Shown: piece by piece, positions 49,323-55,978 of the stretch
Layout: each line of letters starts with the position of its first letter
Numbering within the stretch: position 1 is the stretch's first letter
Source of the DNA: an uncultured Pseudomonadota bacterium
GTDB lineage: Bacteria > Pseudomonadota > Gammaproteobacteria > Steroidobacterales > Steroidobacteraceae
DNA: 59,355 bases
Reading direction: 5' to 3'
NCBI GenBank assembly: GCA_903927005.1
Contig: CAIYLH010000058.1
Location: forward strand, 1 to 59,355
Translations under genes and position numbers: made by a program
The notes under the pieces: generated by a model
Database searches by the model: none
Seen by the model: only the letters and a program-made list of their open reading frames with translations
What the model was told of the DNA's origin: nothing

Positions 49323-50114
49323 ATGCGCATCATTACCCTGCTGCTGCTGGCGCTGACCGCGCCACTGCTGGCGGATGCTGCGGAGCTTGCCCCGGCACCG
49401 ATCTGCACCGACCGGCCGACCAAGTCGACCGGCACCTGCACCGCCGAGGCCGGCCATCTGCAGCTGGAGGCGGACTTGGTCAGCTACAGCGAGCTGTCGC
49501 TGGACGGCACGCGCACCGACACCCTGCTCGCGCTCAACCCGACGCTCAAGCTCGGACTGAACTCGCGCCTCGACCTCGAGCTCAACCTGCCGCTCTGGAC
49601 CCAGAACCGCACGCGTGACGCCGGCGGCAGCAGCACGGTGCGTGGCAGCGGCGATTTGTCGCTCAAGCTCAAGCAGAAGCTCTACAGCGGCGCTGTGCTC
49701 GAGCTCGCACTGATGCCGGTCGTGAAAGCGCCGACCGCCGCGCACGCGCTCGGCAACGGCGCCTGGGAGGGCGGCGTGCTGCTGCCGCTGGTCGCGACGC
49801 TGTCGGACGAATGGAGCCTCAACCTCAGCCCGGAACTCGACGTGCTCGCCAACGCCAGCGGCAGTGGCCACCACCTCAATACCGCCCAGTTGGTGAACCT
49901 CGGCCGCACCCTGCCGCATGACGTCACTCTGTCGATAGAGCTGTGGGCAGACTGGAACCACGACCCGGCCGGCAGCCAGCGGCAAGCATCCTTCGACCTC
50001 GGCGCTGCGTGGCTGCTGTCCACCGATCTGCAGCTGGATGGCGGCGTCAACCTGGGGCTCAACCGGCTAACACCAAGCCGGCAGGCCTATCTGGGCATAT
50101 CGCAGCGATTTTAG
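49323..50114 (+). CDS. Outer-membrane beta-barrel 'transporter', Phenol_MetA_deg type
   Basis: 263 residues from the ATG at 49323; signal peptide (IITLLLLALTAPLLADA) cleaved near AAEL. The mature protein starts PICTDRPTKSTGTC and then shows repeated amphipathic strands (TDTLLALNPTLKLGLNSRLD, SGDLSLKLKQKLYSGA) and ends YLGISQRF with a terminal Phe typical of outer-membrane barrels. It resembles the PF13557-type family (putative MetA-pathway of phenol degradation). Function unknown. It precedes the DUF2946 cluster on the same strand by 95 bases and may or may not belong to it. Confidence 0.72.
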   Translation: MRIITLLLLALTAPLLADAAELAPAPICTDRPTKSTGTCTAEAGHLQLEADLVSYSELSLDGTRTDTLLALNPTLKLGLNSRLDLELNLPLWTQNRTRDAGGSSTVRGSGDLSLKLKQKLYSGAVLELALMPVVKAPTAAHALGNGAWEGGVLLPLVATLSDEWSLNLSPELDVLANASGSGHHLNTAQLVNLGRTLPHDVTLSIELWADWNHDPAGSQRQASFDLGAAWLLSTDLQLDGGVNLGLNRLTPSRQAYLGISQRF

Positions 50115-50209: not shown

Positions 50210-50602
50210 ATGCATATTAGGGCAATGATCGGCGCCTACCGTTGCTCACGTTTTCCGAGCCCTCGCCAGTGCCTTGCGGGACTGGCGCTCTTGGCGCTGC
50301 TGGTCCGTGGGCTGATTCCGGTCGGGTTCATGCCGGCGCAACTCGGCGGGGCGACCCACCTGATGTTCTGCCACGGCACCGCCATGGCGATGCCGGACGC
50401 GGGTCACTCAGGCTCAAAACCCGCAGCCCACGGCTACTGCGCTTATGCCGCCAGTAGCGGCGCAGCGCTGTTACCGGTACTCGCGCTACAGGCACCGCCA
50501 ATCGTGCCCGCAGCCATCTCTGCCGCGTCGCCACTCTCCTCGCGCGTCGCGGCCCCCCCGCCACGCCATTCCGCCGCACGCGGACCTCCTACCCTCGCCT
50601 GA
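50210..50602 (+). CDS. DUF2946 family protein, first copy
   Basis: 130 residues (an ATG five codons later, 50225, is an alternative start). One hydrophobic N-terminal segment (CLAGLALLALLVRGLIPVGF) leads into the DUF2946 hallmark GLIPVGFMPA. A periplasmic Cys/His/Met region follows: LMFCHGTAMAMPDAGHSG and AAHGYCAYAA. The tail is proline/alanine-rich. DUF2946 proteins are found near copper-transport genes. In Bordetella a DUF2946 upstream ORF (CruR) is reported to control translation of a TonB receptor in response to copper. Here a second copy lies just before a TonB receptor. Confidence 0.72.
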   Translation: MHIRAMIGAYRCSRFPSPRQCLAGLALLALLVRGLIPVGFMPAQLGGATHLMFCHGTAMAMPDAGHSGSKPAAHGYCAYAASSGAALLPVLALQAPPIVPAAISAASPLSSRVAAPPPRHSAARGPPTLA

Positions 50603-50825
50603 CACTCCCCGGACATCGTGATGTGACGAGGCCGCGGCCGCGTCATGTCCGATGCAATCCCCGGTAAGGGTGTTGTCGACCGTGTGGCGCAGCCGCATAC
50701 GGCCGCCGCTGCTTCGCCCTAACGCGACAGCATCGGCGCGAGAACCGACAGCCCTCTCCGCGATAAAAGTCACTGCAGCGCAGCTGCACGAGTGGCAAGC
50801 CGTCCGCAGGACAGAGGAGCGAGAA

Positions 50826-51377
50826 ATGGATACGCAACCACCGAGCCTGCCCACCCACCGGGCAGCCCTTGGCTGCATTGCCCCGTCGGTAGTCGTCCAC
50901 CATCCGTCGGCACTGGTCGCAAGCGCCCTCGCCATGGTCATCGACCGCCATGGCGTCTGTCGCGTCGCGGCAACCGCCGCGAGCATGGCAGAGACGCTTG
51001 AACTGCTGCATGACGAGCACCCCGCAGTGCTGGTGCTATCACTGCCCGGCAGCACCGCAAGAGGCGCTGCCGGGGCAATCACCGCAGTAAAGAGGTTCGC
51101 GCCTCAGACGGCGCTGGTGCTGATCAGCGAGCATCGCGATCGGCCATTCCTGGCCGCCATGCTGCGCGCTGGCACCGACGCCTGCCTGCACTGCAGCGAA
51201 ACGAGTCAGCGCCTGCATGAGGCGCTTGATGCGGCGTGCAACGCCAGAACATACCTCAGTCCATCGATCATGCGCGACCTGAACCGCCGCCGACAACCTC
51301 GCCGACGCAACGCGAGCTGCACCCTCACGACTGCGCCCGCACCGGTGACGCGGTCCTACACGAGGTCTGCGCACTGA
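50826..51377 (+). CDS. Degenerate response-regulator receiver (pseudo-receiver)
   Basis: 183 residues from the ATG at 50826, with GAGGAG eight bases upstream. Residues 20-147 follow a NarL/FixJ receiver: SVVVHHPSALVASALAMVID, AVLVLSLPGSTARG, AVKRFAPQTALVLISEHRDR, FLAAMLRAGTDACLHCSE, and ARTYLSPSIM. The phosphorylation residues are lost: the acidic pair is His25-His26, the acceptor Asp is Ser72, and the conserved Lys is in HCSE. After YLSP, where a LuxR HTH normally begins, only a basic tail (LNRRRQPRRRNAS) remains. It probably works without phosphorylation, perhaps through protein contact or metal binding by its His/Cys. Function unknown. Confidence 0.65.
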   Translation: MDTQPPSLPTHRAALGCIAPSVVVHHPSALVASALAMVIDRHGVCRVAATAASMAETLELLHDEHPAVLVLSLPGSTARGAAGAITAVKRFAPQTALVLISEHRDRPFLAAMLRAGTDACLHCSETSQRLHEALDAACNARTYLSPSIMRDLNRRRQPRRRNASCTLTTAPAPVTRSYTRSAH

Positions 51378-51384
51378 ATCGGCC

Positions 51385-51801
51385 ATGAGCGCTCCACGCA
51401 TCACCTCGCGACGCCAGACAACTCGCCATGCCCTGGCGATGCTGCTTGCGCTCGCGCTGGCGGTGCGAGCGCTGGTACCACTCGGCTTCATGCCGACGGT
51501 GGATGTGCACGGCGCCATCGCGCTGATGTTCTGCGAAGGCTACGCGCCAACACCAACCGCGACCGCGCCGACCCGCGACGCCCACCACACCCACCACGTG
51601 CATGGCGGCGCCGGACATCGGACCGCGCACACGTCGTGCCCCTTCGCTGCGAGTGGCGGCGCCACACCACCGCCAGCGCCGCTGCCGCTGTACCTGCCAG
51701 CAGCGCGATTCCTCGCCACTGCCAGGCAACCCTCGCGCGAGCCCGTGAGCCGACGGGGTTTTCGCGCGCATGCGCCGCGTGGGCCACCCTCCCTCTACTG
51801 A
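51385..51801 (+). CDS. DUF2946 family protein, second copy
   Basis: 138 residues, starting 8 bases after the pseudo-receiver stop. The basic N-terminus, hydrophobic segment (ALAMLLALALAVRALVPLGF) and GFMPT landmark match the first copy. The metal-binding part differs: LMFCEGYAP is followed by the His-rich DAHHTHHVHGGAGHRTAH and a SCPFAAS cysteine. The 102-base gap to the TonB receptor contains a 7-base-pair hairpin (51855-51871). Position directly before the receptor gene fits a DUF2946 upstream-regulator role as reported for CruR. Transfer of that role to this protein is inference. Confidence 0.72.
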   Translation: MSAPRITSRRQTTRHALAMLLALALAVRALVPLGFMPTVDVHGAIALMFCEGYAPTPTATAPTRDAHHTHHVHGGAGHRTAHTSCPFAASGGATPPPAPLPLYLPAARFLATARQPSREPVSRRGFRAHAPRGPPSLY

Positions 51802-51903
51802 GTCCCTTCGCCGACCGCCGTGAAGGCGTCCTAGCGGGCGTCGAATCCGCCTCCGCGTGCACCCTGCACGCCGTTTCCCCCGAACCCAGTAGAGAGTCCC
51901 ATC

Positions 51904-54261
51904 GTGAAGTTCATTACCCCACCGCGAGCGCCGCTCGCTATTGCAGCTGTCTGCGCCGCCCTGCTCGCCAGCGTCGCTGCAGGCCCTGCAAGCGCCGGCA
52001 GCGCCGCCGGCGTGACACAGCTCGACGATGTCACCGTCTATGGCATGAGCGAGACCGGCGGTCTGCCCGCGGCACTCGCCGCCAACAGCGCAGGCTACAG
52101 TGCGCAAGAAATCGAACAGCAGATCAACCTGATCGACACATCCGACATCGTGAAGTACTCGCCCGACACGATGACCCGCAAACGCTACATTGGTGATCGC
52201 AATGCGATCATTGAGACGCGCACTGCGAGCGTCACGACCAGCAGTCACTCACTGGTCTATGCCGACGGCGTGCTGATCTCCAACCTGCTCGGCAACGGCT
52301 ATTCGTATCCAGCCCGCTGGAACATGGTCATGCCCGAGGAACTCAGCCGGGTCGACTTTTTCTTCGGACCCTTCTCCGCCGCCTATGCCGGCAACAGCGT
52401 TGGCACAACGGTACTGATGACTACCCGCATGCCGACGTCGCTGCTGATCGCAGCAAAGGCGCAAGCCTTCGCCGAATCGTTTGACTACCTCGGCCGCGCC
52501 GACACATATCGCGGCAGCAGCTACTCGGGCCTGGTCGGCGATCGCACCGCCAGCGGCATCAGCTGGCTGCTCGGCGTCGATCACCTCGACAGCCATGGTC
52601 ATCCAATGACCTATGCCCAGCTCGGGGCAGCCGTCAGTTGCACCGGCAGTTGTGCGAGCGGCTCGCCAGTGGTCAGCGGCGGCGTCAGCTACGTCGATCC
52701 GTACGGAGCGACCCAGACGCTAGTCGGTGCCCAGAGCATAGACCACACCGTGCAGGACACATTCAAACTCAAGCTCGGCTATGAACTCGGCAAAACGGTC
52801 CATGCGCGCTACACACTGGGCAGCTGGCACAACCGCACCGACAACGGCGTCTCAAGCTGGTTACAAGATGCGGCCCGCCAGACGGTGAGCTACTCGCCCA
52901 CCGGCAATATCAACCTCGGCGGCCGGTACTACGCACTGGGCACGCTGTACGCTCAGAACCACTGGGAGCAGCAGCACTGGCTGCACGCCCTGAGCCTGAC
53001 GGGCGATCGCGCGGCAGGCTGGAGCTGGGAAGCCGTCGCGAGCCTCTATACGATCGCGCCCGACCGGCAGACGTCGAGCCTGCCGCAGGGAACCCGGGTC
53101 GGCGCGACGCGGTACTACGGCCAGACCACACGCAACCCTTACGGGGACGGCTGGCAAGTCATGGACCTGCGCGCCAGCTGGCACACCAACGACTCCGCGC
53201 ACGAACTCTCGTTCGGCGCTCATCACGACCGTTATCTGCTCGACAGTCGCGTGGACTACAACACCACCGCCAACGACGGCAGCTGGCTGGCCTCAACCGA
53301 TGCGCTGCAGCTAAAGGCGGCCGCGCGCGGCGAGACGCGCGTCGATGCACTCTACCTGCAGGATGCCTGGCGCTTTACCGATGGCTGGCGGGCAGCAGCG
53401 GGCCTGCGCAGCGAGCGATGGCGCGCGAGCGGCGGCTCGAACCGAACCCTGATTGCCGGCAGCCTCGCCAGCGCGGAGTACGCCGCACGCACGACCACAC
53501 GCAACTCGCCCAAGCTCGCCCTGGAGCACGACCTGTCGGGGCAGTGGTCGGCGCGCCTGGCGATCGGACGGGCGTTTCGCTTCCCCACGGTGACCGAGCT
53601 GTACCAGGCAATCGCCGGACCATCCACCCTACTGGTCAATAATCCGGATCTGCGGCCCGAGGATGTCCTGACCGGCGAACTCACCGCCACGCGCTCGCTG
53701 GCGGACGGCCTGTTGCGCATCTCGGTATTCGAGGAAGACCTGCGTGACGCGCTCTACACGCAGCAGACACCTATCCCGGGCTTTGGCAGCCAGTCGGTCG
53801 TATCTAACATCGACAAGGTACGCAGTCGCGGCGCAGAACTGGCCTACCAGCAGGTCGATGTACTCCTGCACGGCTTGGATCTGACCGGCAACGTCACTTA
53901 CGCTCAGGCGCGGACGCTGCATGACGCGGTCAATCCGGCGTACGACGGCAAGATATATCCCGGCGTACCGCGCTGGCGGGCAACAGCAGTGACCACCTAC
54001 CGGTTCAGCGACACCACAGCGCTCACGGTAGCCGGCCGTTACAGCGGCGACCAGTCGAATTCACTTGCGAATAGCGACGTCAACAAGACGACCTATACGT
54101 CGAACAGCCCTTACTTCGTGCTCGACCTGCGCATCGTCCACGACTTCGGGCACGGCTGGAAGGGCTCGCTCGGCGTCGACAACCTGCTTGATCGCACATA
54201 CTTCGCCTATCACCCCATGGGTCAGCGAACCGTGCATGCGGAAATAAAGTACCGACATTAG
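51904..54261 (+). CDS. TonB-dependent outer-membrane receptor
   Basis: 785 residues, GTG start with AGAGAG upstream. Signal peptide cleaved near ASAGSA. A TonB-box-like DDVTVYGM precedes the plug domain (IVKYSPDTMTRKRYIGDRNA, SRVDFFFGPFSAAYAGNSVG). The rest is a 22-strand barrel rich in aromatic and Gly positions, with the late NPDLRPEDVLTGELTATRSL and SRGAELAYQQVD typical of the family and a closing EIKYRH. Cargo unknown. Its setting among DUF2946, Cys/His-rich and thioredoxin-like genes suggests copper or a copper complex. The TonB-ExbBD proteins in this window could energise it. Confidence 0.9.
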   Translation: MKFITPPRAPLAIAAVCAALLASVAAGPASAGSAAGVTQLDDVTVYGMSETGGLPAALAANSAGYSAQEIEQQINLIDTSDIVKYSPDTMTRKRYIGDRNAIIETRTASVTTSSHSLVYADGVLISNLLGNGYSYPARWNMVMPEELSRVDFFFGPFSAAYAGNSVGTTVLMTTRMPTSLLIAAKAQAFAESFDYLGRADTYRGSSYSGLVGDRTASGISWLLGVDHLDSHGHPMTYAQLGAAVSCTGSCASGSPVVSGGVSYVDPYGATQTLVGAQSIDHTVQDTFKLKLGYELGKTVHARYTLGSWHNRTDNGVSSWLQDAARQTVSYSPTGNINLGGRYYALGTLYAQNHWEQQHWLHALSLTGDRAAGWSWEAVASLYTIAPDRQTSSLPQGTRVGATRYYGQTTRNPYGDGWQVMDLRASWHTNDSAHELSFGAHHDRYLLDSRVDYNTTANDGSWLASTDALQLKAAARGETRVDALYLQDAWRFTDGWRAAAGLRSERWRASGGSNRTLIAGSLASAEYAARTTTRNSPKLALEHDLSGQWSARLAIGRAFRFPTVTELYQAIAGPSTLLVNNPDLRPEDVLTGELTATRSLADGLLRISVFEEDLRDALYTQQTPIPGFGSQSVVSNIDKVRSRGAELAYQQVDVLLHGLDLTGNVTYAQARTLHDAVNPAYDGKIYPGVPRWRATAVTTYRFSDTTALTVAGRYSGDQSNSLANSDVNKTTYTSNSPYFVLDLRIVHDFGHGWKGSLGVDNLLDRTYFAYHPMGQRTVHAEIKYRH

Positions 54262-54318
54262 CCAACAGCCCGCCCCGCCCGCGTCAACCCGGGCGGGGCA
54301 CCGAGCCGCGAGAAACCC

Positions 54319-55536
54319 ATGACTACCCATTTCTTCTCCATCCGCGCACTCGCCTGCGGGGCCGGCCTGCTGCTCGCCGCCTACGGTGTCGCAGCGGTTG
54401 AGGCACCGGCCCCACACGCAGGTCACGCAGCCGGCGGCCACCGCCCCAGCATTGGAACTGGTGCGGAATTTTCGCCCTCCGGTGCACTTTGGATCGCAAA
54501 CATCGAAGGCGACGGCCACCTGGCCGTGCGTATCAGCAACGATCAGGGCGCGCACTTTTCAGTGCCGCGCCAACTGGACACGCAGGGCGATGTAATCGCT
54601 GCCGACGGTGAGAGTCGACCCACCATCGCGTTTGGTCCGAACGGAGTTGTCCTGATCGCATACGCCCGACCGCTGGCGAAACCGTATACGGGCGAGATCC
54701 GACTTCTGCGCTCGACCGACGGCGGCGTTCACTTCGCGGCACCGGTCGTCGTCCACGACGATCGACAGGAAATCACGCATCGCTTCCAGAACCTCGCCTT
54801 CGACCACCACGGCGATCTGTACGTGGTCTGGATCGACAAGCGCGACGCCGAACTGGCCCGCGCTGGCGGCGGCCGGGACGCTTACCGCGGCGCTGCGATC
54901 TATGGCAAAAGATCAACCGACGGCGGCCGCACGTTCGGCCCCGATCTGCGTCTTGGTGATCATTCATGCGAGTGCTGTCGGATAGCGCTGGCCGAATCGC
55001 CGACCGAGGGTCTAGTGGCGCTGTGGCGACACGTATTCGAGGGCAACGTCCGGGACCATGCGCTGCTTGCGCTGTCCGAACTGGGTCAGGGCAGCGAGCC
55101 ACGGCGCGCAACAGCCGACGGCTGGGTGCTCGCTGCATGCCCCCACCACGGGCCCGCGCTGGTTGCGGCCGAGGATGGCGGCTACCACGCAGTCTGGTTC
55201 GGCCTGGATGGCGACCGTCCAGCAGCCCGCTATGGGCGCCTTGCGGCCGATGGAACGCCGCGCGGCACGGTGCGGTCACTGCCCGATGCCGGCGCCGAGC
55301 ACGCCGATGTCGCCGCCGCGGGCGCGATGGTCGTCATCAGCTGGCGCAGCTACGACAATGGGCGCACACACCTTCGCGCGTGGGTGTCGAACGACGCAGG
55401 CGCAACGTTCGCACTGCGCGAAGTGGATGCGGCGAGCGGCGATACCGACCAGCCGCACCTGCTACGGAATGGCTCTGCCTTGTACGTCGTCTGGAACACC
55501 GAAGGAGGCGTCCGTGCACACCGTCTCGATCGCTAG
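54319..55536 (+). CDS. Secreted BNR-repeat (sialidase-fold) protein with Cys/His clusters
   Basis: 405 residues, signal peptide ending near VAAVEA. The mature N-terminus is His-rich (PHAGHAAGGHRP, residues 32-43). The body is a six-bladed propeller with at least four Asp boxes (SNDQGAHF, STDGGVHF, STDGGRTF, SNDAGATF). It lacks clear evidence of the sialidase Arg triad. HSCECCRIAL (Cys217, 219, 220) and ACPHHGPAL (Cys274, His276-277) are candidate metal sites. It lies 57 bases after the TonB receptor and overlaps the thioredoxin-like gene. A metal-handling propeller is more likely here than a true sialidase; that is inference. Confidence 0.75.
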   Translation: MTTHFFSIRALACGAGLLLAAYGVAAVEAPAPHAGHAAGGHRPSIGTGAEFSPSGALWIANIEGDGHLAVRISNDQGAHFSVPRQLDTQGDVIAADGESRPTIAFGPNGVVLIAYARPLAKPYTGEIRLLRSTDGGVHFAAPVVVHDDRQEITHRFQNLAFDHHGDLYVVWIDKRDAELARAGGGRDAYRGAAIYGKRSTDGGRTFGPDLRLGDHSCECCRIALAESPTEGLVALWRHVFEGNVRDHALLALSELGQGSEPRRATADGWVLAACPHHGPALVAAEDGGYHAVWFGLDGDRPAARYGRLAADGTPRGTVRSLPDAGAEHADVAAAGAMVVISWRSYDNGRTHLRAWVSNDAGATFALREVDAASGDTDQPHLLRNGSALYVVWNTEGGVRAHRLDR

Positions 55537-55978
55537 ACGGGCGCTGGCGGCAACCGCGATGCTGCTGATGACGCTGCTCGCTGCGGCGGCGCCACCGGCC
55601 GTACGGTTTTTCGACGAATCCACCTGGGCACACCTGACGCGTCAACTGCACCGACCAGCTGCGGTCGTCTTCACCACCACGGACTGCGCCTACTGTCCGG
55701 CGGTCGTCGACGGGCTCGCTCGCTGGTCCCGGAACGCCCCCGGGGCCGTGATCGTCGTCGTCATGGATCCCGTCGAGACGCCGGCCGCACTGCTGAACGA
55801 TCCCCATTACCGCCAGGCACAGGCGGTGTATGTGTTCGATGGCGCTCCGCTGGCCTTACGACATTCTGTCGACCCCGGCTGGCGGGGCGAGACGCCCTTT
55901 GTCGCGTTACTGGCCCGCGACGGCCACGTCCGCTACGTGCGCGGGCTACCGGACGCCGCCGCACTGGGCGAGTTGTAG
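55514..55978 (+). CDS. Periplasmic thioredoxin-like protein
   Basis: 154 residues from a GTG at 55514 with GGAGG five bases upstream, overlapping the previous gene by 23 bases. The signal or anchor segment is TAMLLMTLLAAAAPP. The thioredoxin-like motif is TTTDCAYCPAVV (Cys58-x-x-Cys61), followed by VYVFDGAPLAL and TPFVALLARDGHVRYV with the cis-Pro. It probably reduces or escorts the cysteine-bearing partners encoded just upstream (BNR protein, DUF2946). It is the last gene of the cluster. Confidence 0.78.
   Translation: MHTVSIARRALAATAMLLMTLLAAAAPPAVRFFDESTWAHLTRQLHRPAAVVFTTTDCAYCPAVVDGLARWSRNAPGAVIVVVMDPVETPAALLNDPHYRQAQAVYVFDGAPLALRHSVDPGWRGETPFVALLARDGHVRYVRGLPDAAALGEL

Follow-up and report, generated by a model that had tools for sequence, protein, structure and literature searches.

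Little is known of how copper passes the bacterial outer membrane, or of what receives it in the periplasm, and the locus described here raises the question of whether one such route is encoded by a cluster of six genes and, if so, how it would be switched on and off. The cluster lies at positions 50210–55978 of contig CAIYLH010000058.1 (assembly GCA_903927005.1), from an uncultured gammaproteobacterium of the family Steroidobacteraceae; the whole analysed stretch of 59,355 nucleotides is referred to as the window. Six plus-strand open reading frames (ORFs) encode, in order, a short protein of the DUF2946 family (leader 1), a receiver-like protein, a second DUF2946 protein (leader 2), a TonB-dependent receptor, a propeller protein and a thioredoxin-like protein (TRX), separated by 223, 7, 102, 57 and −23 nt, respectively. 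A preliminary description of this DNA had proposed a copper-responsive uptake system; the six ORFs are all present where it placed them, and the Cys- and His-containing motifs that it quoted (FCHGTAMAMPDAGH, HHTHHVH, CECC, CPHH and CAYC) are all found in the translations. Missing from it were the RGPP at the end of both leaders, the lack of the CXXC of the Bordetella pertussis leader CruR, and the finding that the pair of propeller and TRX is what stays constant in the operon. The reading favoured here, at a probability of roughly 0.7, is that of a copper-repressed copper-uptake operon under two serial DUF2946 leaders, a reading that the anatomy of the genes and synteny support well.

Conservation of the gene order

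A genome scan with seven propellers gave at least 543 relatives, and the best 80 were kept, mostly from Burkholderiales and Rhodocyclales. TRX adjoins the propeller in 79 of these 80 loci, always with a CXXC, and the 80th (L114) ends inside the propeller. Setting aside seven loci without a reachable receptor (L067, L070, L073, L076, L082, L085 and L115) and 12 with little upstream sequence leaves 61 testable loci. An ORF ending in R[AG]PP is found within 800 bp of the receptor in 51 of these, and a leader with this ending and a correctly placed Cys is found within 1800 bp in 55. Chance was rejected as the source of these R[AG]PP endings, since the controls are far rarer: 19 of 22 permuted motifs give 0–3 of the 61 loci, those able to overlap the true motif (PRGP, PRAP and PPRG) give 8–12 and the other strand gives none (0/61). 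Within the order, seven of 296 genomes, the window's own included, have a propeller match at E ≤ 1.8e-51, and five of six loci (L036–L041) carry an R[AG]PP leader. The neighbourhood comparison called for in the preliminary description thus shows a gene order that recurs in tens of genomes, and the core of leader, TonB receptor, CECC propeller and thioredoxin is a conserved operon.

Several leaders, each ahead of a receptor or of a PCuAC gene, occur in the Burkholderiales loci L073, L109, L101 and L116; in the last two, one leader follows a gene with CATCHH or a similar motif that appears peroxidase-like by eye. In L070 and L076 the receptor is farther upstream and other genes stand before the propeller, those of L070 looking, again by eye, like energising genes of the ExbB type.

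Genes for PCuAC, a copper chaperone that serves in oxidase assembly, are present in 37 of the 80 loci and in 28 of the 50 loci of at least 16 kb; one of the seeds was confirmed by Pfam (131.5 bits). Together with the recurring gene order and a published case in which copper controls a TonB receptor by way of a DUF2946 leader (PMC9426467), this linkage supports the earlier proposal of leader-controlled copper uptake. Of 51 loci, 11 have two leaders ahead of the receptor, and PCuAC lies between the two in 10 of the 11, at 101–156 nt from leader 1 and 19–115 nt from leader 2 in these tandem-leader loci. The bracketing of one gene by two DUF2946 ORFs that had been described for the window is therefore a recurrent arrangement, but the gene bracketed elsewhere is nearly always PCuAC and never a receiver; in the window, the receiver ORF fills the PCuAC slot, at distances of 223 and 7 nt.

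Leader peptides

Both leaders end in RGPP three residues ahead of the stop codon (RGPPTLA in leader 1 and RGPPSLY in leader 2). In B. pertussis, CruR requires a C-terminal RAPP for expression of the receptor, and a CXXC that is termed invariant, 45 residues from the RAPP within one or two, lets copper shut the receptor off through Rho-dependent termination (PMC9426467); RAPP and RGPP cause translation arrest, in CruR among others (PMC12992588). The leaders of the window keep this spacing, with 43 residues between the CXXA (CAYA and CPFA, respectively) and the RGPP and a Cys-to-Arg spacing of 47 in both versus 49 in CruR, and a position before copper genes, as for CruR, is found through synteny in relatives that have a receptor and PCuAC. 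They look as though they function like CruR, yet they are not CruR proper.

For the count of leader classes, ORFs without a hydrophobic stretch were excluded, which removed one CXXS leader (L164) and four chance-looking non-CXXC ORFs. After this filter all 92 leaders of the 80 propeller loci are CXXC (unfiltered, 93 CXXC leaders and four chance-looking ORFs). A lineage set of 37 leaders, taken from the window and the rest of its genome, from its family and from one relative in the order (best loci and others), contains 10 CXXC and 27 non-CXXC leaders, one of the 27 resembling a chance ORF. The other 26 comprise 21 CXXA, three CXXT, one CXXS and one CXXG; in all 26 the spacing is 45–48 and a further Cys, preceded by a hydrophobic residue, lies upstream, and seven of the 10 CXXC leaders have an upstream Cys of this kind. 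When 369 genomes of the class were sampled, 14 of 18 new loci yielded a readable leader, 13 being CXXC and one CXXW. Since non-CXXC leaders are frequent in the lineage set and nearly absent from the 80 loci and the class draw, the CXXA class is concentrated in the lineage of the window, and CXXA-type leaders are common in its bacterial family. They precede a receptor and PepSY_TM in L171, PepSY_TM genes in L168 and, in L167, an outer-membrane-like protein with SCO after it, with Pfam confirmation where a family is named; the genes next to other leaders were judged by eye.

It could be argued that the leaders, having lost the CXXC, are arrest peptides that sense another cue, for example secretion or the redox state of thiols, and that the operon is not controlled by copper at all. 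Both window leaders are CXXA, like many in the lineage set, and other RAPP peptides monitor protein localization (PMC12992588), as such a role would lead one to expect. The kind of gene that follows the CXXA leaders (PepSY_TM, SCO and receptor genes), the narrow range of the spacing and the upstream Cys present in every case nevertheless make this explanation distinctly improbable.

A third DUF2946 leader (CPFA, RGPP) is encoded in the genome of the window on contig C65 (L042:6049–6882), before an outer-membrane-like protein with CACGCG. At a locus of the same genus (L167:4518–7111), a CACGCG protein and a SCO1/SenC gene are flanked by two CXXA leaders.

Propeller and thioredoxin-like protein

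In an alignment of 63 propellers (62 of the 78 full-length loci and the window), Cys217, Glu218, Cys219, Cys220, His247, Cys274, Pro275 and His276 are invariant and His277 is conserved in at least 90%. Among the 79 homologues of the 80 that are readable as an ORF, CECC is present in all 79 and C.HH in 78. Distant homologues (L013–L035) have CDCC, CPCC, CTCC or CSCC in place of CECC and no CPHHG, so that CECC with CPHH marks the branch to which the operon belongs. In one of them (L016), a thioredoxin-like gene follows the CPCC propeller.

The assignment of this protein as BNR in the preliminary description is supported as to fold and not as to family, the scores for BNR (26.1 bits; cut-off 27) and BNR_2 (18.2 bits; cut-off 31.4) both being too low. 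The AlphaFold2 model (pLDDT 89.0, pTM 0.86) is all-β save for short helices, and the closest solved folds according to Foldseek are lyase, lectin, glycoside hydrolase and sialidase propellers at ∼12% identity; a profile search found no sequence relatives in the PDB at E ≤ 0.01.

The thioredoxin-like protein reaches no Pfam cut-off, yet its assignment stands: Cys58, Cys61 and Pro128 are invariant in 27 of 27 aligned relatives, giving the CXXC and the proline expected of the fold, and a search of the PDB with its profile gives thioredoxins and glutaredoxins (best E 2.6e-4). Pro128 is presumably the cis-proline. A single ORF of 531 residues in L038 (7373–8968) encodes both propeller and thioredoxin, which argues that the two act together. 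The simplest reading of the conserved residues is a putative copper site at CECC/CPHH that is held reduced by the thioredoxin-like partner. Literature searches found no paper that links this propeller–thioredoxin pair to copper uptake; neither PMC12914433 nor PMC9426467 uses the terms sialidase, propeller or BNR in its main text, and thioredoxin is absent from that of PMC12914433.

TonB-dependent receptor

Assignment as a TonB-dependent receptor, as made in the preliminary description, is clear (Table 1). Receptors at propeller loci fall into at least three groups (26, 30 and 5 of the 61 loci) with the same propeller and TRX, which identifies the latter two as the constant part. His433 and His440 are kept in 97% of 29 aligned receptors from the two nearest types. 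Over its length the window receptor is 31% identical to the receptor of L171, a locus with a leader and PepSY_TM. Copper receptors of the CrtA type form a sequence cluster and have six residues at the binding site. The gene for such a receptor is followed by PepSY_TM in more than 75% of loci (PMC12914433); here the propeller follows instead, and no PepSY_TM was found at E ≤ 0.001 in the genome of the window, which is 97% complete.

A different substrate has to be considered, with the receptor importing heme, a siderophore or a sugar, the propeller acting on this ligand as an enzyme or lectin and copper being at most a side signal. The best NCBIfam matches of the receptor are to heme and siderophore subfamilies, its closest PDB sequence is PhuR and the fold modelled for the propeller is like that of lectins, lyases, glycoside hydrolases and sialidases. 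The NCBIfam scores, however, are far under cut-off, for which reason identity as a heme receptor was rejected, and the invariant Cys/His set of the propeller, the linkage with PCuAC and the association of at least three receptor groups with one propeller and TRX all speak against another ligand, which is regarded as unlikely.

Receiver-like ORF

When the receiver is aligned with NarL-type regulators (11 relatives), its acceptor Asp is replaced by Ser, the acidic pair by two His residues and the Lys by His, and the ORF stops before the helix–turn–helix output domain of these relatives, leaving no DNA-binding domain. The ORF is intact, and GAGGAG upstream of the ATG is a good ribosome-binding sequence. 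No receiver homologue was found at any of the 80 propeller loci, and a search of 150 family genomes gave no close homologue, the best match apart from the receiver itself being to ordinary response regulators at 28% identity. The earlier view of this ORF as a degenerate receiver agrees with its low Pfam score, whereas its inclusion as a component of the copper system is not supported, and a conserved role in that system was rejected on the same distribution. The receiver is taken as a relic or a private addition. One might instead see in it a regulator that works without phosphorylation, is produced only on stalling at leader 1 and feeds back on the operon, in view of the intact ORF with its GAGGAG, the 7 nt junction to leader 2 and its location in the PCuAC slot; with no homologue at the 80 loci, no close one in the 150 family genomes and no DNA-binding domain, and with a decaying gene as the simpler account, this is very improbable.

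Proposed mechanism

The ORFs, motifs, synteny and lost receiver residues on which the mechanism is based come from this analysis, and work on B. pertussis has shown that RAPP is needed, that arrest takes place there, that copper relieves it via the CXXC and that Rho terminates transcription (PMC9426467, PMC12992588); the remaining steps we infer. At low copper, a ribosome would stall at the RGPP of each leader and shield the transcript from Rho, allowing transcription to continue over the receiver ORF, leader 2 and the receptor, propeller and thioredoxin genes. With sufficient copper, the nascent leader might bind the metal via two separated cysteines and a His-rich linker rather than via a CXXC, which would free the stalled ribosome and lead to termination of transcription; leaders in series would gate the receptor twice. 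The receptor would carry a copper chelate into the periplasm, where the propeller might accept the copper at CECC/CPHH and the thioredoxin-like partner might keep the thiols of this site reduced or reduce the copper itself, for passing to oxidase chaperones. The propeller–thioredoxin pair would then occupy the place of the PepSY_TM reductase in crtA operons.

Several observations weigh against copper control and copper uptake. The copper-binding CXXC of CruR is absent from both leaders (CAYA and CPFA); CruR requires it for copper sensing, so that the leaders were not classed as CruR. In B. pertussis, copper control is lost in a CXXC double mutant and the semiconserved upstream Cys is dispensable (PMC9426467), and a role for this Cys in the CXXA leaders is therefore something that we infer. 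A recognized leader is missing in six of the 61 testable loci; L040 has a receptor and a propeller but lacks an R[AG]PP leader, and its TRX gene is on the opposite strand; and the nine other genomes listed from the genus of the window have no propeller match below 1e-50 (the strongest being 2.8e-14). The window receptor has weak or no similarity to the operon receptors of L036 and L037, and since the receptor varies between loci a common substrate is unproven. The search for PCuAC genes gave none in the window and one elsewhere in the genome, and a promoter scan found no consensus promoter upstream of leader 1. As for Rho, a C-over-G stretch at or above the 95th percentile occurs in 48 of 51 leaders versus 64% of same-length controls, but the maxima of the receptor, propeller and TRX genes also exceed the 99th percentile; the signal thus discriminates poorly and the skew is weak evidence for Rho.

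If a copper-repressed uptake operon is the correct reading, the propeller, with its 543 or more relatives from a single scan of genomes, would be a widespread candidate copper receiver with fixed Cys and His residues, and the serial leaders would represent a simple switch design. The lineage of the window, in which half of the CXXC is lost while arrest motif, spacing and gene context are retained, would offer a natural test of how such leaders sense copper.

Sequence features and surroundings

Both leaders score above the Pfam cut-off for DUF2946 and the Pfam match of the receptor is clear, and the receiver, propeller and thioredoxin score below their cut-offs; positions of these and other features are collected in Table 1. 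The gene preceding leader 1 (49323–50114) encodes an outer-membrane-type protein of the Phenol_MetA_deg family (61.4 bits; cut-off 22). A scan of the locus for promoters and terminators was uninformative: a single promoter-like site, located within the receptor gene, compares with a mean of 0.6 after shuffling, and five terminator-like sites compare with a mean of 3.0, and no known RNA element matched the locus above the Rfam gathering score.

Table 1. Features of the six-gene locus in window coordinates.
Feature	Position	Strand	Basis
Leader 1, DUF2946 family, 130 aa	50210..50602	+	PF11162, 27.6 bits (cut-off 23.7); end ARGPPTLA
Upstream Cys codon, leader 1 (LMFCHG)	50369..50371	+	Translation
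Cys of CAYA, leader 1, at position of first Cys of CruR CXXC	50438..50440	+	Translation, spacing
78 nt with most C over G	from 50533 into the gap 50603..50825	+	Compatible with a Rho site, no proof of one
RGPP arrest motif, leader 1	50579..50590	+	Translation
Gap from leader 1 to receiver ORF, 223 nt	50603..50825	+	Intergenic distance
Degenerate receiver ORF, 183 aa, no DNA-binding domain	50826..51377	+	Response_reg, 25 bits (cut-off 30.2)
Leader 2, DUF2946 family, 138 aa; begins 7 nt past receiver stop	51385..51801	+	PF11162, 31.1 bits (cut-off 23.7); end PRGPPSLY
Upstream Cys codon, leader 2 (LMFCEG)	51532..51534	+	Translation
Cys of CPFA, leader 2	51637..51639	+	Translation, spacing
RGPP arrest motif, leader 2	51778..51789	+	Translation
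TonB-dependent receptor, 785 aa, GTG start	51904..54261	+	TonB_dep_Rec_b-barrel, 150.8 bits; Plug, 31.1 bits
CECC propeller protein, 405 aa	54319..55536	+	AlphaFold2 model, Foldseek matches
CECC motif, propeller residues 217–220	54967..54978	+	Invariant in 63/63 aligned
CPHH motif, propeller residues 274–277	55138..55149	+	C274, P275 and H276 invariant in 63/63; H277 at least 90%
Thioredoxin-fold protein, 154 aa; GTG start 23 nt within propeller gene	55514..55978	+	C58, C61 and P128 invariant in 27 aligned

Comparison with known systems

It is tentatively suggested, at odds of about one in three, that the locus represents a module in which a CECC/CPH propeller and a dedicated thioredoxin serve as periplasmic copper acceptor and reductase behind exchangeable TonB receptors and serial nascent-chain copper attenuators, with a split Cys...Cys site in place of CXXC in one lineage. 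Such a module is not described in the papers found by literature searches.

The copper-starvation operon of Bradyrhizobium japonicum bears the full name pcuABCDE. Like the loci described here, this operon, with PcuB and PcuC, combines a receptor with PCuAC and is headed by a cruR homologue, but the passages drawn on here mention no propeller–thioredoxin pair (PMC9426467, PMC12617631). CutF of Rhodobacter capsulatus is likewise a leader linked to copper that has a Cys motif and, at its C terminus, a proline motif; it differs in that the Cys motif is CXXXC, copper enhances its stalling-like step instead of relieving it and its target is the multicopper oxidase CutO (PMC9973294). The C-terminal motif of the window leaders is identical to that of the RAPP/RGPP arrest peptides, which are enriched ahead of TonB-receptor, PCuAC, PepSY and thioredoxin-domain genes; the survey of them is general in scope, and neither the propeller nor the CXXA class appears in the parts of it drawn on here (PMC12992588).

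The cruR–crtA(bfrG)–crpH(bp2921) operon of B. pertussis resembles the locus in having a DUF2946 leader with a C-terminal R[AG]PP ahead of a TonB receptor and, behind the latter, a protein whose suggested role is in copper handling or redox chemistry in the periplasm (PMC9426467, PMC12914433, PMC13038864). The window differs from it in having two leaders, CXXA in these leaders and an extra receiver ORF, and in having a CECC propeller and a thioredoxin where the crpH operon has PepSY_TM; its receptor is not assigned to CrtA.

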